Source: Nitrospirota bacterium | Lineage (GTDB): Bacteria; Nitrospirota; 9FT-COMBO-42-15; HDB-SIOI813 | Assembly: GCA_020846775.1 (NCBI GenBank) | Contig: JADLDG010000006.1 | Span: 1-64,000 of the forward strand | Direction of reading: 5' to 3' | Length of the DNA: 64,000 nt | Part shown: one piece after another, positions 5,773-32,013 of the stretch | Numbering within the stretch: position 1 is the first letter of the stretch | Layout: each line of letters opens with the position of its first letter | The notes under the pieces: model-generated | Told to the model about the DNA's origin: nothing | The model's input: only the letters and a program-made list of their open reading frames with translations | Databases searched by the model: none | Program-made: the position numbers and the translations under genes

Positions 5773-5789
5773 TATATTTTAGATTGCAT

Positions 5790-6212
5790 ATGGAAAAGAT
5801 AATTGCTAAATATAAAGATACCGGAATAAGGCTGACTCCTCAGAGGATTGCGATACTGAAATACCTTGATGGAAATACCAGCCATCCGACGGCAGATGAC
5901 ATTTACAGGGATGTCAGGAGGCATTACCCTACTTTGTCCTTTGCTACCGTATATAATACCCTGCAGACCCTGAAGGACCATGGGGATGTGATGGAGATCA
6001 CGATTGATCCCCTGAGGAGGCATTATGACCCTAATACAGAACAGCATCATCATGTTGTATGCATTAAGTGTAATAAGATTTGGGATGTCTTTGAGGACTA
6101 TTCAGAAATATTGAAGCTCCCTGCAAATGTGTCCCGGGAGATCAGGGCAGTTGGCGCCCATGTGGACTTCCGTGGTGTTTGCAGGAGTTGCCAGAAAGGT
6201 GAAAGGGGGTGA
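5790..6212 (+). CDS. perR: Fur-family peroxide-type regulator (PerR-like)
   Basis: This 140-residue protein has the Fur-family winged helix (GIRLTPQRIAILKYL, then LSFATVYNTLQTL) and a C-terminal dimerisation domain. Cys91, Cys94, Cys131 and Cys134 form two CxxC pairs for the structural zinc. The sensing-site ligands expected in PerR are available (His32, the HHH at 86-88, Asp80). PerR proteins sense H2O2 by iron-catalysed histidine oxidation and repress peroxidase genes; ahpC lies 98 bases downstream and has a Per-box-like site, favouring PerR over Fur. ATG 5790 is preferred over TTG 5784; neither has a Shine-Dalgarno sequence. Confidence 0.88.
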   Translation: MEKIIAKYKDTGIRLTPQRIAILKYLDGNTSHPTADDIYRDVRRHYPTLSFATVYNTLQTLKDHGDVMEITIDPLRRHYDPNTEQHHHVVCIKCNKIWDVFEDYSEILKLPANVSREIRAVGAHVDFRGVCRSCQKGERG

Positions 6213-6222
6213 TTTCATTTTA

Positions 6223-6237
6223 TTATAATTACTTTAA
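6223..6237 (+). promoter_or_regulatory. Per-box-like operator upstream of ahpC
   Basis: TTATAATTACTTTAA matches the Bacillus-type Per box TTATAATTATTATAA at 13 of 15 positions. It lies 73 bases upstream of the ahpC start codon, within the perR-ahpC gap. I could not assign -35 and -10 boxes confidently around it. Control by the adjacent PerR-like protein is inferred. Confidence 0.55.
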
Positions 6238-6310
6238 GTTGATCACCTTGTGATTAAGTTTCAATTAATATTAACAGACAATCAGCACTATTTAAAAGGA
6301 GGAAGTAAAA

Positions 6311-6910
6311 ATGTCAGAATGTTTATCCATAGGACAGGTTGTACCAGGTTTTGAGATGGAGGTTTTCGACCCTAATAAGAGTGACTTTGGAAAGATTACA
6401 CTTGATGAGATCAAGGCAAGGAGGTCATGGACCATACTGTTCTTCTATCCGGCAGATTTTACATTTGTCTGCCCTACTGAGCTGGATGATCTTGCTGATA
6501 AACAAAAGCAGCTCAAAGACCTTGGCTGCGATGTCATCTCTGTAAGCACAGACACCAAGTTCTCCCATATGGCATGGCAGCAGTCAGAAAAGCTTCTTGC
6601 CAATGTCAAATATCTTATGGGCGCTGACCCGACAGGTAAGGTTTCCAGGTTGTTCGGTGTATATGATGAAGGCACCGGTCTCGCACTGAGAGGTACATTT
6701 ATCATCAATCCCGACGGGAAACTGGTTGCATCAGAGGTTAATTTCTATAACGTCGGAAGGAATGCTGATGAGCTTTTAAGGAAGATGCAGGCTAATTTGT
6801 ACCTTTCAGGCCATCCGGATGAAGTATGTCCTGCAAACTGGCACGAAGGGGAAAAGACAATTAAACCTTCTGCAAAGATTGTAGGTAAGGTTTACGAGGC
6901 AATGCAATAA
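6311..6910 (+). CDS. ahpC: Typical 2-Cys peroxiredoxin AhpC
   Basis: This 199-residue enzyme reduces H2O2 and organic hydroperoxides in the cytoplasm. The peroxidatic Cys54 lies in FTFVCPTEL and the resolving Cys173 in EVCPANW, defining the typical 2-Cys AhpC/Prx1 class. The length is usual. AAAAGGAGG lies 7 bases before the ATG. No ahpF follows, so the reductant may be a thioredoxin-type or other disulfide reductase elsewhere. Its position behind perR and the Per-box-like site suggests induction by peroxide. Confidence 0.95.
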   Translation: MSECLSIGQVVPGFEMEVFDPNKSDFGKITLDEIKARRSWTILFFYPADFTFVCPTELDDLADKQKQLKDLGCDVISVSTDTKFSHMAWQQSEKLLANVKYLMGADPTGKVSRLFGVYDEGTGLALRGTFIINPDGKLVASEVNFYNVGRNADELLRKMQANLYLSGHPDEVCPANWHEGEKTIKPSAKIVGKVYEAMQ

Positions 6911-7086: not shown

Positions 7087-8547
7087 TTAGCCTGGAATAC
7101 CGTAAGATGACCATTTCCTGTCAACCAGTTCCCTGATCTCTGCTGGCATCTCGATCTTCTTACCCCATGCACGGTTAACCTCTGGATATGACTTCATCGT
7201 GGCATCAATCCCCATCTTTGAGCCCAATTCCGGAAGGGGAGTTGAAAAGTCAAGATAATCAAACGGTGTATTTTCTATCATTACAGTGTCTCGGGCCGGA
7301 TCTACCCGGGTTGAAATTGCCCAGATAACATCATCCCAATTGCGGACATCAATGTCATTATCCACAATGATCACATATTTAGTGTATAAGAACTGTTTCA
7401 GAAAGCCCCACAACCCCATCATTACCCTCTTGGCATGTCCCGGGAATTCCTTCTTGATTGAAACTATTGCAATGCGGTATGATACTGCCTCCATAGGAAG
7501 ATGAAAGTCCACAATCTCCGGAAATTGATTTCTCAATACAGGGAGGAATATCCTTGTCAGTGCGAGTCCGATTATCGCATCCTCTTTAGGTGGACGTCCT
7601 GTTATAGTTGATAAGTAGAGCGGAGAATTCCTGTGAGTTATACATTTAATCCTCATAACCGGGAATTTCTCTTCTGCATTATAATAACCGGTGTGATCTG
7701 CAAATGGTCCCTCGGGCGCCTCTTCTCCGGGAATAATCTCTCCTTCAAGCACTATCTCACTTGAGGCCGGCACCATCAGTTCATTTGTAACGCATTTCAC
7801 AATCTCAACCGCTTCTTTCCGGAGCAGCCCTGCAAAATGAAACTCCCCCATCCTCTCCGGCACAGGGGTCACTGCCGCTATGGTAGTTGCCGGTTCACAC
7901 CCTATCGCAACAGACACAGGCATTGGGACATTTTTCTCCAGCCATTCTCTATGATGATGTGCCCCGCCACGCGTATTGAGCCAGCGCATAATCACCCTGT
8001 CCTTACCAATCACCTGCAGCCTGTATACACCAACATTGAATGGTCCTCCTGATGGCGACTGTGTAATGACCAGTGGCCAGGTAATAAGCGGGCCGGCGTC
8101 TCCAGGCCAGCATGTCATTACAGGGAATTTAGACAGGTCAACATCATTCCCCTGTAAAACGACCTCCTGACACACACCTTTGCTAACCGTCTTTGGAGTA
8201 AGACCCATTACTTTGGCAAAAAATGGAAATTTCTTAATAGCCTCTATCATCCCCTTTGGAGGCTCAGGCTGCTGCAGGTATGCAAGGAATGTCCCTATCT
8301 CATCAAGTCCCGCCTCATCACAGCCGAGTCCGAGGGCCACCCTTCCAACTGTTCCATATAAATTGGCAACAACCGGAATGCTGCAGCCCTCCACATTCTC
8401 AAATATGACTGCAGGCCCGCCTCTGGAGAGCAGTCTCTCCAGAATCTCTGTAATCTCATAATTTGTGTTTACCTCCGTCTTAATCCGGACAAGGTCTCCC
8501 TTTTGTTTCAAAACATCCAGAAAATTTCTTAGATCTTTATATGGCAT
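7087..8547 (-). CDS. ubiD: UbiD-family decarboxylase
   Basis: This 486-residue protein belongs to the UbiD (3-octaprenyl-4-hydroxybenzoate carboxy-lyase) family, which uses prenylated flavin made by UbiX. Recognisable segments are PYKDLRNFLDVLKQKG, YRLQVIGKDRVIMRW, the ERMGEFHFAGLLRKE region, ADHTGYYNAEEKFPVM and SIKKEFPGHAKRVMMGLWG. It should decarboxylate the prenylated 4-hydroxybenzoate made by the product of the overlapping upstream ubiA gene. The start overlaps the ubiA end by 11 bases. No ubiX is visible in the window. Confidence 0.92.
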   Translation of the reverse strand: MPYKDLRNFLDVLKQKGDLVRIKTEVNTNYEITEILERLLSRGGPAVIFENVEGCSIPVVANLYGTVGRVALGLGCDEAGLDEIGTFLAYLQQPEPPKGMIEAIKKFPFFAKVMGLTPKTVSKGVCQEVVLQGNDVDLSKFPVMTCWPGDAGPLITWPLVITQSPSGGPFNVGVYRLQVIGKDRVIMRWLNTRGGAHHHREWLEKNVPMPVSVAIGCEPATTIAAVTPVPERMGEFHFAGLLRKEAVEIVKCVTNELMVPASSEIVLEGEIIPGEEAPEGPFADHTGYYNAEEKFPVMRIKCITHRNSPLYLSTITGRPPKEDAIIGLALTRIFLPVLRNQFPEIVDFHLPMEAVSYRIAIVSIKKEFPGHAKRVMMGLWGFLKQFLYTKYVIIVDNDIDVRNWDDVIWAISTRVDPARDTVMIENTPFDYLDFSTPLPELGSKMGIDATMKSYPEVNRAWGKKIEMPAEIRELVDRKWSSYGIPG

Positions 8548-9409
8548 AATAACTCCTTATCAGAAGATCAGATACGATACCAATAAGAACAATAGTTCCA
8601 ATCCAGACATGGGATTTGAACAGCTGCAACAGTCCTTCCCGCTCAACTCCTCTTTTTATCTGGAACACCTGATACATAAAACCTACAGTTATGAGGAACA
8701 GGGAAAACAGGTAAATATTTCCAAGTCTTGATATCCTCCCAACAACAAACAGGGTGAATATTGTAAGCAGGAAGATTATGGCAAGGGCAAACCACGTATT
8801 TCCACCAAAAAGGATCGCAGTAGACTTGACTCCAATCCTTATGTCATCATCAATATCTATAAGGGCATAGATCGTATCATAGCCTGTTGCCCAGAAAATA
8901 GTTGCAAGAAAAATCAGAATTGAAGGCAGTGCCACTTCATTACGAACAGCGCCCCATGCAACAATGGCTCCCCAGCCGAAGGCCATGCCCAGAAAAAGCT
9001 GAGGGGTATTAACAAGCCTTTTCGTGAAGGGGTAAACGCCTGTCAGTAAAAGGGCAACCAGGGACAGCGCAATGCTGAGCCTGTTAAGGCTCAGGACAAG
9101 GGTAAGTGCAATCAGCAGTAGAATGAATAAAACTGCCGCGGCCTCAGACATCCTTAATCTTCCTGAAGCAAGAGGGCGGTCTTTAGTCCTCTCTACAAAT
9201 CTGTCAAACTTCCTGTCAGCCATGTCATTTATCACACACCCGGCACTGCGCATTATAAAAGAGCCGAAAACAAATATAAAGATATGTTTAAGCGACGGCC
9301 TCCCCTCGGAGGCAAGGACGAGCGACCATAGGACCGGCATCATGAGGAGTAATGTACCATACTGTTTGTCAAGGCGTATCAGGTCAGCGACTGCCTTCAG
9401 TTTTTCCAT
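8537..9409 (-). CDS. ubiA: UbiA-family 4-hydroxybenzoate polyprenyltransferase
   Basis: This 290-residue integral membrane protein has about eight hydrophobic segments. The first aspartate-rich motif is NDMADRKFDR (residues 61-70), followed by RTKDRPLASG; the second is the YALIDIDDDIRIG segment near residue 180. These bind the Mg-diphosphate of the polyprenyl donor. It should attach the isoprenoid tail to 4-hydroxybenzoate from chorismate lyase. It overlaps ubiD by 11 bases downstream and the chorismate lyase gene by 13 bases upstream, making one tight operon. Confidence 0.93.
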   Translation of the reverse strand: MEKLKAVADLIRLDKQYGTLLLMMPVLWSLVLASEGRPSLKHIFIFVFGSFIMRSAGCVINDMADRKFDRFVERTKDRPLASGRLRMSEAAAVLFILLLIALTLVLSLNRLSIALSLVALLLTGVYPFTKRLVNTPQLFLGMAFGWGAIVAWGAVRNEVALPSILIFLATIFWATGYDTIYALIDIDDDIRIGVKSTAILFGGNTWFALAIIFLLTIFTLFVVGRISRLGNIYLFSLFLITVGFMYQVFQIKRGVEREGLLQLFKSHVWIGTIVLIGIVSDLLIRSYYAI

Positions 9410-9987
9410 GTATCCGGTGAGAATACTTCCATAATCGCTGCATTGAATCCATCAGAAACCCTTAGGCGGTAACACCTTGCCCAGAGGGTATCTTCAATAG
9501 TTGAAAAATGCCCCGCTAAATAATCACTTTTTATCCGGCTGATAAATAACTGGTCCCGCAGGATCGGCATATTGTAATCACTGAGCAATACGCCTAGCGG
9601 TTTATTTTTCCTGTTTATATCGCGTTTTAAAGAATCAGAAATAGATGAAATATCAATCACTGAATGTGCATATACCAGGTTCTGCTCGTCTTTCTTCAGC
9701 CACGCATCTCTCACGATAGACGTGGTCCCTTCCTTTACGTCAAGGAATTTAGCCATTTCAAGACCCATGCCTGCACCATTCTGTCCTGTAACATCTACCG
9801 AAATATCAGACAAGAATAACGCACGGAAAAATTTGACAAGCGAGCCGTCATACAATAAAGTCAAACGCAAAAGCCTGGAAACGTCAAACTTAGAAGAACT
9901 GGAGATAAATTCCTCAGGGTCCATCCATGAACAAACAGGTATATAGGAAAACGGAAGATGGGTCAGATAATATTTTTCTATCAGCAT
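9397..9987 (-). CDS. ubiC: Chorismate lyase-like protein (UbiC/DUF98 superfamily)
   Basis: This 196-residue protein resembles the chorismate pyruvate-lyase superfamily. RLLRLTLLYDGSLV matches the region before the substrate site, IVRDAWL supplies the conserved arginine, NKPLGVLL matches the PLG motif, and MEVFSP near the C-terminus supplies the catalytic glutamate. It should convert chorismate to 4-hydroxybenzoate plus pyruvate, the first step towards a benzoquinone. Identity to E. coli UbiC looks low, so context with ubiA and ubiD carries much of the call. The ATG at 9987 lies at the predicted transcription start. Confidence 0.75.
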   Translation of the reverse strand: MLIEKYYLTHLPFSYIPVCSWMDPEEFISSSSKFDVSRLLRLTLLYDGSLVKFFRALFLSDISVDVTGQNGAGMGLEMAKFLDVKEGTTSIVRDAWLKKDEQNLVYAHSVIDISSISDSLKRDINRKNKPLGVLLSDYNMPILRDQLFISRIKSDYLAGHFSTIEDTLWARCYRLRVSDGFNAAIMEVFSPDTWKN

Positions 9988-9994
9988 AGCCCAT

Positions 9995-10024
9995 AGAATA
10001 AAACAAAGGGTTTTAAGAAGTCAA
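9995..10024 (-). promoter_or_regulatory. Promoter of ubiC-ubiA-ubiD
   Basis: On the minus strand TTGACT (10024 down to 10019) is followed after 18 bases by TATTCT (10000 to 9995). Transcription should begin near 9988, next to the ubiC ATG at 9987, giving a leaderless mRNA; no Shine-Dalgarno sequence is visible. Boxes were located by eye. Confidence 0.5.
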
Positions 10025-24548: not shown

Positions 24549-25373
24549 TTAAGACGGGCTGAAGAAGGTTATAACCTTTGATAAAGTATCTTTAAGTTTT
24601 TTCCTCTCTACTATCATATCTATCATTCCATGCTCAAGCAGGAATTCTGCACGCTGGAAACCATCAGGCAGCTGCTGTTTTATAGTTTGTTCAACAACCC
24701 TGGGTCCGGCAAAGCCGATAAGGGCCTTAGGCTCAGCAATTATTATATCTCCCAGCATGGCAAAGCTTGCGGTAACCCCTCCGAAAGTCGGATCAGTCAA
24801 TATCGAGATATACGGTATCCCCATTTCAGAGAGGCGCGATAAGGCCGCGCTGGTCTTCGCCATCTGCATTAGCGAGAGTATTCCCTCCTGCATCCTCGCC
24901 CCGCCGGAGGCAGAGACTATTATGAGGGGAAACTTTGTATTCATAGAAGTCTCTGCTGCACGCAATATCTTTTCTCCAACAACAGAACCCATGCTCCCGC
25001 CCATAAACTTGAAATTAAATATCCCAACTATTACAGGCAGTTCATTTATCTTACCCTCTCCATAGATAAATGCATCAGCATAACCTGTAGACTTCTGATA
25101 GTTCTTAATCCTGTCTTTATATTTCACTGAATCTTTAAATTCCAATGGGTCCAGGGAGTAGATAGATCCGTCCATCTCTTTGAAGCTGCCATCATCAATT
25201 ATCAGGGCTATACGATCTTCAACTGATATGTAAAAGTGATACTTACACTTGGGACAGACCATGGAGCTTTTTTCTACTTCTTTCCTGTAGATGATCTCCC
25301 GGCAATAGTTACACTTTATCCAGAGCCCTTCCGGTATCTTGATCTTCTTATCTTCTTTCTTAAACCAGGCCAT
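24549..25373 (-). CDS. accD: Acetyl-CoA carboxylase carboxyltransferase subunit beta
   Basis: This 274-residue subunit pairs with AccA to transfer CO2 from biotin to acetyl-CoA. A zinc ribbon occupies residues 23-47 (CNYC then CPKC), followed by the crotonase-fold carboxyltransferase domain with FNFKFMGGSMGSVVGEK, SGGARMQEGILSLMQMAKT and DPTFGGVTASFAMLGD. It overlaps the trpA end by 14 bases. The trpA-accD-folC order recurs in many Gram-negative genomes. Confidence 0.96.
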   Translation of the reverse strand: MAWFKKEDKKIKIPEGLWIKCNYCREIIYRKEVEKSSMVCPKCKYHFYISVEDRIALIIDDGSFKEMDGSIYSLDPLEFKDSVKYKDRIKNYQKSTGYADAFIYGEGKINELPVIVGIFNFKFMGGSMGSVVGEKILRAAETSMNTKFPLIIVSASGGARMQEGILSLMQMAKTSAALSRLSEMGIPYISILTDPTFGGVTASFAMLGDIIIAEPKALIGFAGPRVVEQTIKQQLPDGFQRAEFLLEHGMIDMIVERKKLKDTLSKVITFFSPS

Positions 25374-26163
25374 TTATCCCCTTTTTTAAGGACTTTACGA
25401 AACTACCTGTCCTGGACAATAATTGCTTCTTCCCAATATTTTCCTCAATAAGCCTGACAACAGCACTCCCCACTATTACGCCGTCTGCCCAGCGGGAAAT
25501 CTTCCTCGCCTCCTCAGGACGGGAGATGCCAAAACCTACTGCCACAGGCAGGCCGGTGTGCCTTTGTATCTCTGAAACCTTATCCTTAATCTCGTTAAAA
25601 TTAGCGAGTTTCCCTCCTGTAATACCTGTCATGGACACATAATATACAAAACCGGAAGAGACCGATGTAACCTTCTTTATCCTCTCTTCAGTACTTGTTG
25701 GCGCAAGAAGGAACACAGTGTCAAGACCTGCTTCTCTCGCATACCTGATAAACTCTTCTGCCTCCTCAGGAGGAAGATCCGGTATTATAACTCCATCTAT
25801 GCCGGCAGAGACAGCTTCTGCCGGAAATCTTTCTATCCCGTATTGCAATATGATATTGTAATACGTCATAACAATAATTGGAACAGTAACCTTTTTCCTT
25901 GTCTTTTTGACAAGAGAGATGACCTTTTTAAGCGTAGTCCCGGACTTGAGGGCACGATCAGACGCCCGCTGGATCGTTGGACCGTCTGCAACCGGATCTG
26001 AAAATGGGACTCCAAGCTCCAGTATATCGGCACCTGCCCTCTCAATGGTCTCGATCAGGGCCCCTGTTGTGTCAAGGTCCGGATCACCAGCCATGATATA
26101 GGTAATGAGGGCCTTCTCATTTCCTGATTTCAGTCTTGTAAATGTATCTTCTATTCTGCCCAT
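25360..26163 (-). CDS. trpA: Tryptophan synthase alpha subunit
   Basis: This 267-residue TIM-barrel subunit cleaves indole-3-glycerol phosphate to indole. Catalytic Glu and Asp lie in LELGVPFSDPVADGPTIQ and IPDLPPEE; phosphate-binding VGFGISRPEEA and GVIVGSAVVRLIEE are conserved. It follows trpB by 6 bases and overlaps accD by 14 bases. Confidence 0.96.
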   Translation of the reverse strand: MGRIEDTFTRLKSGNEKALITYIMAGDPDLDTTGALIETIERAGADILELGVPFSDPVADGPTIQRASDRALKSGTTLKKVISLVKKTRKKVTVPIIVMTYYNIILQYGIERFPAEAVSAGIDGVIIPDLPPEEAEEFIRYAREAGLDTVFLLAPTSTEERIKKVTSVSSGFVYYVSMTGITGGKLANFNEIKDKVSEIQRHTGLPVAVGFGISRPEEARKISRWADGVIVGSAVVRLIEENIGKKQLLSRTGSFVKSLKKGINGLV

Positions 26164-26169
26164 CTTGCC

Positions 26170-27354
26170 TTACCTGCTGCCCAGAATTTCCGCCACCTGT
26201 TGAACGTCCTTATCACCACGGCCGGACAGATTCACTATAATAATGTTATCTTCAGACAGCGTTGGTGCAAGCTTTGTCACATATGAAATTGCGTGTGAAC
26301 TCTCCAACGCCGGCATTATCCCCTCTATCTCACTCAGCAGAGAAAATGCACTGAGGGCCTCCTTATCCGTGGCATATGTATATTTGATCCTTTCTGCATC
26401 TCTGTAATAACTGTGTTCAGGTCCGACCGCTGAATAATCAAGTCCTGCAGAGACTGAATGGGTAACCTTGATCTGGCCATCCTTATCCTGCAGGAGATAA
26501 GTCATCGTACCCTGAAACGCGCCGACTGATCCAGTTGCAAATCTCGCCGCATGCTTTCCGGTCTTAATGCCAAGCCCCCCTGCCTCAACGCCAATCATTT
26601 TCACGGATGGGTCGTCAATGAACCGGTAGAAGAGACCTATCGCATTGCTTCCCCCGCCAACACAGGCCACAAGATAGTCAGGCAGTCTTCCTTCAGCAGC
26701 GATGATCTGATCCCTTGCCTCCGTCCCTATAACAGACTGGAAATCCCTTATCATCATTGGGAATGGATGTGCCCCAAGTACAGAACCAAGTATATAATGC
26801 GTTGTCCTCACGTTAGTAGTCCAGTCCCTCATCGCCTCACTTATCGCATCTTTAAGAGTCTTGCTCCCGTTATCAACAGGTATCACCTTTGCCCCCAGGA
26901 GCCTCATCCTGAAGACATTGAGCGACTGCCGTTCCATATCTTCAGTCCCCATGTATATCTCGCACTCGAGCCCGAACATTGCAGCAACAGTAGCAGTTGC
27001 AACGCCATGCTGACCTGCGCCTGTCTCAGCAATTATACGGCCCTTTCCCATACGTCTGGTTAATAAAGCCTGTCCGATCGTATTGTTAATCTTATGAGCT
27101 CCTGTATGGCAGAGGTCTTCACGCTTAAGGTATATCTTAGCCCCCTTTAGCTGTTTGGTCAGCCTCTCTGCAAAAAACAGAGGTGTCGGGCGGCCTACAA
27201 ACTTCTTAAAATAATAGTCGAGCTCGTCCTTAAATGCAGGATCATCCTTGGCCGTTAGATATACCTCTTCCAGCTCCTGCAATGCCGGCATGAGTGTCTC
27301 AGGAACAAACTTCCCGCCATATATTCCAAAGTGACCGTTATTATCCGGAAGCAT
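26170..27354 (-). CDS. trpB: Tryptophan synthase beta subunit
   Basis: This 394-residue PLP enzyme joins indole and serine. The Schiff-base lysine lies in [16 protein letters not shown] (HK pair), the phosphate-binding loop in [13 protein letters not shown], and [12 protein letters not shown] is conserved. It is the TrpB1 type that works with TrpA. Its start overlaps the trpF end by 14 bases. Confidence 0.97.
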
Positions 27355-27973
27355 ATAGTTTTTTTGCCTCTCTCACAAACTCAATTATCTTGTGATGGTC
27401 TTTCTCCCCCGGGCGAATCTCTACACCGCTTGAGACATCAACACCATAAGGTTGTATCAACCTGACAGCATCTCCAACATTAGAGGCATTAAGTCCACCT
27501 GACAGGATAATCCTGCCATATTCTTTAGCCATCTCAGCATATTTCCAGTTGAAGGTCTTTCCTGTCCCCCCCATGGTCCCATCTACCTTGGTATCAAGAA
27601 GAAAGGTATTAACATCATACATCTGCATTTCTTTGATGCTCTCTTCATCCTTGATCCTGATTGCCTTTATAACCTTCTCCCTGAACCTTGTACATAGTAT
27701 TGGTGATTCTGATCCGTGGAACTGCAATACCTGGATACCACCTTCTCGAATGACACGTCTTATAAGTTCCTCGCTCTCATCTACAAAGATTCCTACCGTT
27801 GTAATAAATACCGGCAGTCTGGCTATTATAGCACGGGCCTTTCCGGGGTCAATAAATCTCGGGCTTTCAGGATAGAAGACAAAACCGATTGCATCAGCCC
27901 CTGCATCAGCCGCTGCCAGAGCATCTTCTAAATTAGTTATCCCGCATATTTTTACTTTGACCATATTTTCCAT
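27341..27973 (-). CDS. trpF: Phosphoribosylanthranilate isomerase
   Basis: This 210-residue TIM-barrel enzyme performs the Amadori rearrangement in tryptophan synthesis. [26 protein letters not shown] contains the catalytic cysteine; the aspartate lies in [17 protein letters not shown]. The start may be the ATG at 27973 or the internal Met four codons later. It abuts trpC with no gap. Confidence 0.95.
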
Positions 27974-28762
27974 TTAACTCCCTAAAAGTTCCTTAATCTT
28001 TTCACCAACATCCTTTGCGGTTACTATTGATTCTCCCACAAGGACTGCATGAACCCCCGCATCTCCCAATACCCTGATATCATCGTTAGAGTAAATCCCG
28101 CTCTCGCTTACGATCACCTTATCACGAGGTATCTCTTTAATTATCCTCAGTGTAGTATTAATATCAACATTAAATGTTTTAAGGTCTCTGTTATTTATTC
28201 CCACTATCTGAGCCTCTGCCCTGAGTGCCTTCTCAAGCTCCCGCTCGTCGTGGACCTCTACAAGTGCAGGCATACCCAGTTCTGATGACATGGAGATAAA
28301 TTCAGTAAGGGAAGACGGTTCCAATATCGCTGCAATAAGAAGCAAGGCATCCGCTCCAAGATACCTTGCCTCATATATATGATACTCATCAAATAAAAAA
28401 TCCTTCCTCAACACAGGGATCTGTGCAGCCTTTTTAGCAGCTGCAATATACTCAGGGTTCCCTGAAAAAAAGTCTTCCTCTGTAATGACTGAAATTGCGG
28501 ACGCCCCGGCCTCTTCATATTGTTTAGCAATGTCATCCACCTTCAGGTCTTCTATGAGCACACCCTTTACAGGAGATTTCTTTTTAATCTCTGCTATCAG
28601 ATTTACGCAGCTATTGCTTCTATTTAAAACCGCATTAAAAAAATCACGCGGCGCCTCTAAATCACGAAGCCTCGGAATTAACTCCCTTAGAGGCAGCCTG
28701 GCCTTAACCTGTGACAAGCCTTCCTTCTTACGCTCAACTATCTTTGCTAACAAGCCTTCCAT
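27974..28762 (-). CDS. trpC: Indole-3-glycerol phosphate synthase
   Basis: This 262-residue TIM-barrel enzyme closes the indole ring. IAEIKKKSPVKGVL carries the catalytic lysine, and VLRKDFLFDEYHIYEA, LVEVHDERELEKAL and IVSESGIYSNDDI are conserved. It is a separate gene rather than fused to trpF, lying between trpD (25 bases upstream) and trpF. Confidence 0.96.
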   Translation of the reverse strand: MEGLLAKIVERKKEGLSQVKARLPLRELIPRLRDLEAPRDFFNAVLNRSNSCVNLIAEIKKKSPVKGVLIEDLKVDDIAKQYEEAGASAISVITEEDFFSGNPEYIAAAKKAAQIPVLRKDFLFDEYHIYEARYLGADALLLIAAILEPSSLTEFISMSSELGMPALVEVHDERELEKALRAEAQIVGINNRDLKTFNVDINTTLRIIKEIPRDKVIVSESGIYSNDDIRVLGDAGVHAVLVGESIVTAKDVGEKIKELLGS

Positions 28763-28787
28763 AATTACATACTGCCATATAACCGGG

Positions 28788-29804
28788 CTAAATACCCTGG
28801 TTCGTCATCTTCTTCAATGTTTCAAGTTTAGCCAATGCAGCACCTGCTACAATAGACTTCTCAGCCTCAATAATGGCATGATTGAAATCAGCCGCCTTTC
28901 CGGACACAAGTATACCTGCCGCGGCATTCAAAAGCACCACATCCCTCTTTGGCCCTTTCTCACCCTCTAATATCTGGAGAACAATGCGGGCATTTTCCTC
29001 TGCACTGCCGCCTCTTAGGTCTTCTACTGATGCTGTACTCATTCCAAAATCAGAAGGCCGGATGGTATATGTCCGCACCTCCCCTGCCTTGCCTTCACTT
29101 ACGATCGTTTCGCCTGTTATTGTAATCTCATCAAGGCCGTCACTGCCATGAACTACAAGACAGTGTCTGGCGCCAAGATTAATTAATACGTGTGCCAGGA
29201 TCTCGGTGAGATGCGGTGAATACACACCAATCAACTGACGTGCAGCGCCTGCAGGATTGGTGAGTGGACCAAGTATATTGAACATAGTCCTGATGCCAAT
29301 CTCCTGTCTCGGGGCCACTGCATGCTTCATTGCCGGGTGATAAAGGGGTGCAAATAAAAAACCGACCCCTATTTCATTTATGCAGGCATCAACCCTCGCC
29401 GGCGATATGTCTATATTAACGCCAAGCGCCCTCAACACATCTGCACTCCCGCACATGCTTGAGACAGAACGGTTCCCATGCTTTGCCACTGTTATCCCTG
29501 CCCCTGCTACAATAAACGCCGCTGTAGTTGAAATATTAAATGTATGCAGCCGGTCTCCGCCGGTGCCGCATGTATCTACAGCATCAGGATCGCTAACCCT
29601 GATCCTTGCAGCCTTGTTGCGCATCACTATTGCAGCGCCAGTGATCTCTTCTACAGTCTCACCCTTCATCCTGAGGGCGGTCAGATATGAGGCAATCTGA
29701 GAAGGAGATGCCTGCCCTGTCATGATCTCTTCCATGACAGCCTCAGACTCCGACTCACTCAAATTTGCTCCATCTACGAGTCTTGTAATAGCTTCCTTAA
29801 TCAT
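28788..29804 (-). CDS. trpD: Anthranilate phosphoribosyltransferase
   Basis: This 338-residue enzyme transfers phosphoribose from PRPP to anthranilate. The PRPP-binding DTCGTGGDRLHTFNIST, KHGNRSVSSMCGSADVL and the later GSDGLDEIT are all present. It is monofunctional, not fused to trpG. A 164-base gap holding a dispersed repeat separates it from trpG inside the trp run. Confidence 0.96.
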   Translation of the reverse strand: MIKEAITRLVDGANLSESESEAVMEEIMTGQASPSQIASYLTALRMKGETVEEITGAAIVMRNKAARIRVSDPDAVDTCGTGGDRLHTFNISTTAAFIVAGAGITVAKHGNRSVSSMCGSADVLRALGVNIDISPARVDACINEIGVGFLFAPLYHPAMKHAVAPRQEIGIRTMFNILGPLTNPAGAARQLIGVYSPHLTEILAHVLINLGARHCLVVHGSDGLDEITITGETIVSEGKAGEVRTYTIRPSDFGMSTASVEDLRGGSAEENARIVLQILEGEKGPKRDVVLLNAAAGILVSGKAADFNHAIIEAEKSIVAGAALAKLETLKKMTNQGI

Positions 29805-29828
29805 AATAATAAAGATTCACTCGAAATA

Positions 29829-29920
29829 GCCTTTCAAATCCTCCCTGCCCCCCTTTTCTAAAGTGGGGTAACTGCTTTCCCCCTTTGAAAAAGGGGGATT
29901 AAGGGGGATTATTTGCATGT
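29829..29920. repeat. Dispersed C-rich/G-rich palindromic repeat, copy 2
   Basis: It has the same order of motifs as 6914-7060: CCTTTCAAATC, a C-run/G-run hairpin around TTTTCTAAAG, then CCCCCTTTGAAAAAGGGGG and TTAAGGGGGATTAT. It sits between trpG and trpD inside the trp operon, where it could reduce or process the transcript. No gene lies in it. Confidence 0.85.
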
Positions 29921-29968
29921 ACCTTTGTGAGCCCGCGGCTCATGACGGTTCGTGACTGAACTTTGCTC

Positions 29969-30532
29969 CTATAATTTAATAAAATTCCTCAACAAATCCT
30001 TTCCTACAGTCGTCAGTATAGACTCCGGATGGAACTGCACCCCTTCTACCTTAAACTCCTTATGCCTGATCCCCATAATCTCGCCTTCGTCAGTCTCAGC
30101 GCTTATTTCAAGACAGGCCGGAAGCGTATCCCTTTTAACTATGAGGGAATGATACCTTGTAGCCTCAAATGGATTAGGTAATCCTGAAAATATAGTCTTC
30201 CCATCGTGGCGTATCAAGGATGTCTTGCCATGCATCAGCCTGTAATTCCTTACCACATCACCGCCAAATGCCTCTGCAATTGATTGATGACCGAGGCAGA
30301 CACCGAGTATGGGTATCTTGCCTGCAAGTGTCTGAATCAATTCTACAGATATCCCGGCCTCTTTAGGAGTACAGGGACCCGGTGAAATCACGATCCTCTC
30401 AGGAGACATGTATTCTATCTCTTCAATACCTATCTTGTCATTCCGGAAGACCTCCATCTCCTGCCCCATCTCGCCAAGATACTGTACCAGATTATATGTG
30501 AATGAGTCGTAATTATCTATTATGAGAAGCAT
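29969..30532 (-). CDS. trpG: Anthranilate synthase glutamine amidotransferase component
   Basis: This 187-residue class I amidotransferase supplies ammonia to TrpE. The nucleophile is in [15 protein letters not shown] and the His/Glu pair in FHPESILT; the N-terminal [19 protein letters not shown] is diagnostic of TrpG/PabA. It may also serve 4-aminobenzoate synthesis. It overlaps the trpE stop by one base. Confidence 0.95.
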
Positions 30533-32013
30533 TACTCCAGCCCCTTCTCCGCCATCTCAATCGCCTTTACCATAGCCTTCATCTTATTCGTTGTCTCAAG
30601 ATATTCCTTATCAGGCTCCGAATCAGCCACAATACCCGCCGCGGCCTGGAGGTATGCCTTATTCCCTTTTATGACGATAGTCCTTATTGTAATACATGTG
30701 TCCATGTTCCCCTGAAAACTGAAATAGCCTACCGAACCTGCATAAAGCCCCCTGTTGGATGATTCAAGCTCTTCTATAATCTCCATTGAGCGGATCTTTG
30801 GGGCCCCGCTGACAGTACCGGCCGGAAAGCATGCCTCCAGCACATCAAAGCCATCATACTCGGGATCAATCTCTCCAATCACATTCGAAACCAGATGAAT
30901 CACATGAGAATATCTCTCAATGACCATCAGTTCATTTACCGAAACACTCCCCTTCTTACAAACCCTCCCGATGTCGTTACGTCCAAGATCAACAAGCATT
31001 ATATGTTCTGCACGCTCCTTCGGATCAGACAACAGCTCATTCTCCATTCGTATATCATCCTCAGGACTCCTGCCCCGCCTTCTCGTACCGGCTATAGGTC
31101 TTGTCTCAACACGAGTCCCCTCTAACCTGACCAGTACTTCAGGCGAGCTGCCTACCACATGCAGATCACCATACTTGAGGTAAAACATATATGGAGACGG
31201 ATTGACCCTGCGCAGCGCCCTGTAAATATCAAAAGGGTTAGAGCTTGTATCAAGGCTGAACCTCTGAGATATCTGTACCTGGAAGATGTCTCCTGCAGCG
31301 ATATATTCCTTAGCTTTTTCCACCTTCCCGATGAATTCCTCTTTGGTTACATTTGAAGACCACTTAAGATTTACTTGGTCACCACCCTTCTTATAGTGAC
31401 TATGCTTTAGCGGTCCCCATAGATCTTCTACGACACCATCAATCTTTTGTATCGCCTTTTCATATGTCCCTTTCAGGTCATCATCCTTTATGTGGGCATT
31501 GTGAACTACCTTTATCGTATGAAGGTGATTATCAAATATCAGCATGGTATCTGTAAGCACAAAAAAGAGGTCAGGGATATGAGTAAACTCACCCCTCTTT
31601 TCTATATCAACCTCTTCAAAATACCGGATCATGTCATAGGTCATGTAACCCACAGCACCCCCAAAAAACCTGGGGAGGTTCTCATCCAAAACAGGTTTGT
31701 AATGTGACATCTCCTCCTTCACGGCATCGAGCGGGTTTTCGTAGGCCTTAGTCGTTACAACCCCGTCCCTGACCCTTGTTACCCCCCTGTGGTCTGCCCT
31801 GATTATAACCCTGGGGTTACTGCCAAGGAAACTGAACCGGGCCCATTTCTCCCTACCCTCGACACTCTCAAGGAGGAATGAGTAATCACCCTTATCTATT
31901 TTCATGAATGCAGAGACAGGTGTTTCAAGGTCGGCAAGTATCTCTTTATAAACAGGGATAAGATTCCCCTGCTCCGCCTTTTTACAGAATTCTTCGAAGG
32001 TTGGATGGTACAT
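30532..32013 (-). CDS. trpE: Anthranilate synthase component I
   Basis: This 493-residue chorismate-using enzyme makes anthranilate. The allosteric tryptophan-site motif LLES (SFLLESVEG) and SAF are present, so feedback inhibition is expected. The C-terminal catalytic domain shows [48 protein letters not shown] and [19 protein letters not shown]. It is the first gene of the trp run, with an ATG about 8 bases from the predicted transcription start. Confidence 0.96.

Follow-up and report, generated by a model that had tools for sequence, protein, structure and literature searches.

Quinones of high potential are as a rule linked with oxygen, and Elling et al. 2025 is reportedly the primary paper on one pathway that leads to such a compound, the methyl-plastoquinone (mPQ) pathway of Nitrospira. 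This pathway is described by Bale et al. (PMC12324825), and its genes carry the names MpqA to MpqE (PMC13386864). An O2-independent pathway to ubiquinone is known from Desulfobacterota GWC2-55-46 and from Pseudomonadota (PMC13386864, PMC11707229); outside Pseudomonadota, the accessible text of Chobert et al. 2026 describes UbiUV for one Desulfobacterota class only (PMC13386864). The literature that we searched, to which Elling et al. 2025 did not belong, contained no report of UbiU/UbiV in Nitrospirota, and part of what follows may already be published.

The DNA analysed here, a stretch of 64,000 nucleotides that we call the window, comes from contig C6 of the host assembly, which has 2.73 Mb and is 99.6% complete. 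An earlier reading of these letters without database searches (the sequence-only reading) had guessed that the host was not a proteobacterium and possibly belonged to Nitrospirota, and it was right: the uncultured host and its relatives form an isolated family (f1) inside this phylum, as shown by f1 genomes that appeared in a sample of the phylum to which a Nitrospira sp. genome belongs. Six genera were seen in f1, the search for relatives having returned no genome of the host's order or class outside f1. By inference, we take f1 to be the GTDB family HDB-SIOI813 in the class 9FT-COMBO-42-15, a lineage which has been reported, with six genera, from groundwater low in oxygen and as sister to Nitrospiria (PMC11033732). 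The three genes at issue are the following:

9397..9987, minus strand: ubiC/mpqC, a divergent chorismate lyase (PF01947, PF04345, catalytic residues, predicted fold)
8537..9409, minus strand: ubiA/mpqA, 4-hydroxybenzoate polyprenyltransferase (TIGR01474, tree placement)
7087..8547, minus strand: ubiD/mpqD, 3-polyprenyl-4-hydroxybenzoate decarboxylase (PRK10922, TIGR00148, structure-sequence match 2idb)

They are transcribed in the order C-A-D, encode products of 196 (UbiC), 290 (UbiA) and 486 (UbiD) amino acids, and overlap by 13 bp (ubiC/ubiA) and 11 bp (ubiA/ubiD); the start codon of ubiC is at 9987, and the interval under study ends 37 bases further upstream, at 10024. The same order is present in six f1 relatives, whose proteins are 53-74% (UbiC), 68-79% (UbiA) and 81-92% (UbiD) identical to those of the host, so that the arrangement is not a matter of chance and the tightly overlapping lyase-prenyltransferase-decarboxylase operon recognised by the sequence-only reading is confirmed. 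A promoter scan around ubiC gave a number of matches near the chance level. Next to the operon lie a Fur/PerR-like regulator and an AhpC-type peroxiredoxin (window 5784-6910), which are retained there in four f1 genomes (G001, G003, G004 and G008). Elsewhere in the window, at 25360-32013, there is a tryptophan biosynthesis cluster (trpA, trpB-like, trpD and trpE-like), which also consumes chorismate.

The family scores of all three proteins agree with the proposal, made from the letters and open reading frames, that they carry out the first three steps of ubiquinone- or plastoquinone-type synthesis. UbiC is indeed divergent, as had been noticed, being ~20% identical to E. coli chorismate lyase in a structural match, yet it scores over the cut-offs of the two chorismate-lyase families in Pfam (PF01947, 53 bits, 4e-14; PF04345, 35 bits, 1e-8) and keeps, in alignment, the catalytic Arg77 and Glu156 (E. 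coli gene numbering). The fold predicted for it by AlphaFold (mean pLDDT 88.5) matches that of AF1396 (2nwi), with TM 0.73/0.88, and that of E. coli chorismate lyase (1g1b), with TM about 0.58/0.67; since this fold is common to GntR effector domains, the assignment is carried by the active-site residues and the operon context. UbiA, with 304 bits, is over the cut-off (275) of TIGR01474, the model for 4-hydroxybenzoate octaprenyltransferase. For UbiD, the best match is PRK10922, that is E. coli UbiD, with 651 bits, which is below the model cut-off of 788, and TIGR00148 gives 536 bits; among solved structures its score is 612 bits with E. coli UbiD (2idb) and no more than 201 with decarboxylases of aromatic acids. 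Neither UbiD nor UbiA, then, sides with aromatic-acid catabolism, the grouping that had been named beforehand as telling against a quinone role.

The host genome contains two UbiA-family genes, the present ubiA and a heme O synthase gene adjoining a CtaA-like gene; the prenyltransferase MqnP is not found among them, and neither is MenA, the one gene of the classical Men pathway that was searched for. MqnA and MqnD, of the futalosine menaquinone pathway, were found in none of the seven f1 genomes searched, the same search having detected them in other genomes of the phylum (G011-G014 and G016). No respiratory quinone pathway was found in the host besides the one to which the ubiCAD operon belongs. 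UbiG was over its cut-off in none of the seven f1 genomes (best f1 match 72 bits, cut-off 103), against 240-250 bits in the same search for G016 and for the three deltaproteobacterial genomes G121, G122 and G123; the 72-bit candidate, at host contig C87, was rejected because it lies under the cut-off and covers the profile only in part. A UbiB-like ABC1 protein on host contig C58 is over the Pfam cut-off and scores 430.7 bits to TIGR01982 (cut-off 487.55). A second UbiB-like gene shares host contig C113 (L234) with a UbiE-like methyltransferase gene, as a second locus or a contaminant. In another family of Nitrospirota, the genome G016 brings together ubiE-rSAM-ubiC-ubiA, UbiG, UbiU, a partial UbiV and MqnA, a mix which, at 6% contamination, may be a binning artefact.

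A search of the genome for linked hydroxylases and for methyltransferases of UbiE/UbiG type had been proposed as a check, and it turned up an MpqE-type UbiE in the host and UbiU/UbiV in five relatives, but no UbiG in f1. The host UbiE, on contig C38, scores 370.3 bits to the NCBIfam MpqE model NF052510 (cut-off 335), which is also passed by the proteins of Nitrospira sp. (372.6 bits), Manganitrophus (381.1), G016 (340.9) and G166 (339.4), and failed by E. coli UbiE (277.9) and by a ubiquinone-type deltaproteobacterial UbiE (285.5). The UbiE tree joins f1 to Nitrospiria proteins (98/97), and a grouping of f1 with the deltaproteobacterium is rejected (AU p 0.016). A second UbiE-like methyltransferase common to f1 (L238:6665-7528) was left out of the pathway, its best scores being to arsenite methyltransferases.

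MpqE alone would not supply all the ring methyls of methyl-plastoquinone. Directly after mpqE in f1 stands a B12-type radical SAM gene, and the same pair occurs in Manganitrophus; the CxxxCxxC motif of the protein is present in 10 of 10 aligned homologues. Operons of the form ubiE-rSAM-ubiC-ubiA exist elsewhere in the phylum (G016, G133, G151, G166, G188 and G204), and among 345 Nitrospirota genomes 146 have both the radical SAM gene and UbiA, 8 the radical SAM gene alone, 16 UbiA alone and 175 neither, which places the gene in 146 of the 162 UbiA-bearing genomes; because shared ancestry inflates this co-occurrence, the operon linkage is the stronger argument. Nothing close to the f1 gene turned up in the ubiquinone-producing genomes tested. 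Of the curated families, cyanobacterial Slr0320 is the nearest to the f1 protein (439 bits, below the cut-off of 775); the authors of a paper on Slr0320 mention, as an unproven idea, that it might methylate plastoquinone (PMC8065906). We think that the radical SAM protein is probably a ring C-methylase and a candidate for a further methylation step.

UbiU and UbiV are encoded in five f1 relatives, and UbiT in four, the contig of G008 stopping before UbiT. In this locus, which lies downstream of tig-clpP-clpX and two cytochrome-like genes, ubiV comes after ubiU; the four Fe-S cysteines of UbiU and the four of UbiV are all conserved in alignment, and the f1 UbiV and UbiT that were scored are over the curated cut-offs, UbiU reaching 389-412 bits, below its cut-off of 440. 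The pair is retained in all five f1 assemblies in which the locus was examined. Directly upstream of ubiU, f1 genomes have genes for a CBS + cytochrome b C-terminal protein and a FixO-like cytochrome c (L154:7970-9492; counterparts L155-L158). In the host, contig C50 stops (C50:1) inside the matching cluster and ubiUVT is absent from the assembly; two U32 peptidase matches, considered as UbiU, were rejected as halves of TrhP split across contigs C2 and C117. Since the locus falls in an assembly gap and the U32 matches are TrhP halves, it is by comparison with its relatives, one of them in the same genus, that the host itself is predicted to carry ubiUVT. Between ubiU and ubiV in G001 there is a 70-base palindromic repeat (L154:10580-10649), related copies of which occur elsewhere in the host genome, and such repeats may explain the host assembly gap at this locus.

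The three Nitrospiria genomes tested have no U32 genes, hence no UbiU/UbiV, and a UbiH-like FAD monooxygenase that scores far above the f1 matches is present in two of them at least. No UbiH-type monooxygenase was recognised in f1, where there are only weak FAD_binding_3 matches; two of these proteins were examined as possible ring hydroxylases and turned out to be of the geranylgeranyl-reductase type.

The phylogeny of UbiA, which the sequence-only reading had proposed as a check, answers one half of the question: f1 falls in the high-potential-quinone clade of Nitrospirota and deltaproteobacteria, separate from Pseudomonadota (98/95), and whether it is nearer to Nitrospiria or to deltaproteobacteria is undecided by UbiA alone (71/43; two rows of this tree, L340 and L341, are probably mistranslated and were given no weight). 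In the UbiD tree f1 joins the deltaproteobacterial ubiquinone genomes (97/94), not Nitrospira, a grouping of f1 with mPQ genomes being rejected (AU p 0.035), and the tree of the A-D-E-C concatenation leans to the same deltaproteobacterial ubiquinone side (93/94). The core quinone genes thus look mosaic between the mPQ and ubiquinone branches, which is a reason for caution against reading the product from any single gene.

We think it probable, if well short of certain, that the operon starts an mPQ-type quinone pathway with O2-independent hydroxylation, whose most likely product, as judged from the gene content, would be methyl-plastoquinone or a close C-methylated benzoquinone. In the scheme that we propose, which builds on directly observed gene sets and their linkage, on scores to curated families and on the conservation of residues for catalysis and cluster binding, and in which the substrates and products are predicted ones, UbiC would convert chorismate to 4-hydroxybenzoate and pyruvate, UbiA would add the polyprenyl tail to 4-hydroxybenzoate, and UbiD would remove the carboxylate to give a polyprenylphenol. 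The ring would then be hydroxylated by the 4Fe-4S proteins UbiU-UbiV, as in ubiquinone synthesis without O2, assisted by UbiT and UbiB, and C-methylated by MpqE and probably also by the adjoining B12-dependent radical SAM methylase, no methoxy groups being added because UbiG is missing. The stronger claim, that the f1 lineage makes an mPQ-type quinone entirely without O2 by means of UbiUV and the B12 radical SAM methylase, is put forward tentatively, with rather less than even confidence. The guess that this operon might be the Nitrospira mPQ pathway therefore stands as regards the Nitrospirota host, the MpqE-type UbiE and the absence of UbiG and of the menaquinone genes searched for, but has to be amended in that the pathway is not simply that of Nitrospira, given UbiU/UbiV in the relatives and a UbiD that groups elsewhere.

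That the product is another C-methylated benzoquinone (plastoquinone, or one with an undescribed head group) and not methyl-plastoquinone is unlikely but deserves real weight: the hydroxylase system of f1 is unlike that of the Nitrospiria genomes tested, UbiUV could hydroxylate the ring more than once, the radical SAM family reaches as far as cyanobacterial Slr0320, and the mosaic nature of the core genes points the same way, whereas f1 and Nitrospiria, the latter being the known makers of methyl-plastoquinone, have matching MpqE and radical SAM genes. We regard as improbable a ubiquinone pathway like that of the Desulfobacterota class GWC2-55-46 (ubiCADG + ubiVKBET), with an unrecognised O-methyltransferase replacing UbiG. 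Such a pathway would fit the UbiUVT of f1, the clustering of UbiD with deltaproteobacterial ubiquinone genomes and the resemblance of C-A-D to the order ubiCADG published for GWC2-55-46 (PMC13386864), but the same search that finds UbiG in G121-G123 finds it over the cut-off in no f1 genome, the host UbiE is of MpqE type, and the radical SAM gene linked to mpqE is without close match in the ubiquinone genomes tested. It is very improbable that the host has a standard, O2-dependent mPQ pathway and that UbiUVT in its relatives has a different substrate or stays unexpressed: the missing ubiUVT of the host assembly would agree with this, as would the heme O/A synthesis genes of the host, which indicate that oxygen is probably used at times, but f1 has no recognised UbiH-type monooxygenase, and UbiU-UbiV is there in every one of the five f1 assemblies examined at the locus. 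Finally, the UbiD and UbiA superfamilies are generally known to include enzymes of aromatic-acid catabolism and of other prenylations, but the idea that the operon serves such catabolism, or another prenylated compound, in place of a respiratory quinone is close to refuted by the preference of UbiD for the quinone enzyme (612 against at most 201 bits), by the TIGR01474 score of UbiA and by the lack of any other quinone prenyltransferase in the host genome.

If the stronger claim, an mPQ-type quinone made entirely without O2, is true, O2-independent ring hydroxylation would be carried beyond ubiquinone, suggesting an early origin in the evolution of high-potential quinones. The occurrence of an mPQ-type pathway with O2-independent hydroxylases in a groundwater lineage would bear on the question of whether these quinones existed before abundant oxygen. 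The co-occurring, operon-linked radical SAM gene is a testable candidate for the missing mPQ ring methylation and, via its Slr0320 relative, also for plastoquinone synthesis.

With the Mpq pathway of Nitrospira, f1 shares the C, A, D and E homologues, a UbiE over the MpqE model, the absence of UbiG and of MqnA/D, and the same radical SAM gene (about 50-57% identity); it differs in having UbiU/V (with UbiT), which the three Nitrospiria genomes lack, in a UbiD that groups elsewhere, and in the layout of the operon, since the C-A-D operon of Nitrospiria has FGE-sulfatase-domain genes at one or both of two places, between ubiC and ubiA and after ubiD, and that of f1 is without them (L022, L023, L024, L028 and L030). 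With the O2-independent ubiquinone pathway it has in common UbiCAD and UbiU-UbiV-UbiT, the four Fe-S cysteines in each of UbiU and UbiV, and the position of ubiV after ubiU, but it is set apart by the absence of UbiG, by a UbiE of MpqE type and by a radical SAM gene without close match in the ubiquinone genomes tested. As for the cyanobacterial plastoquinone pathway (PMC8065906), compared here by the radical SAM protein alone, the f1 protein is closest to the Slr0320 family, yet below its cut-off. What is new in f1 is thus best read as an O2-independent variant of a known, mPQ-type pathway.
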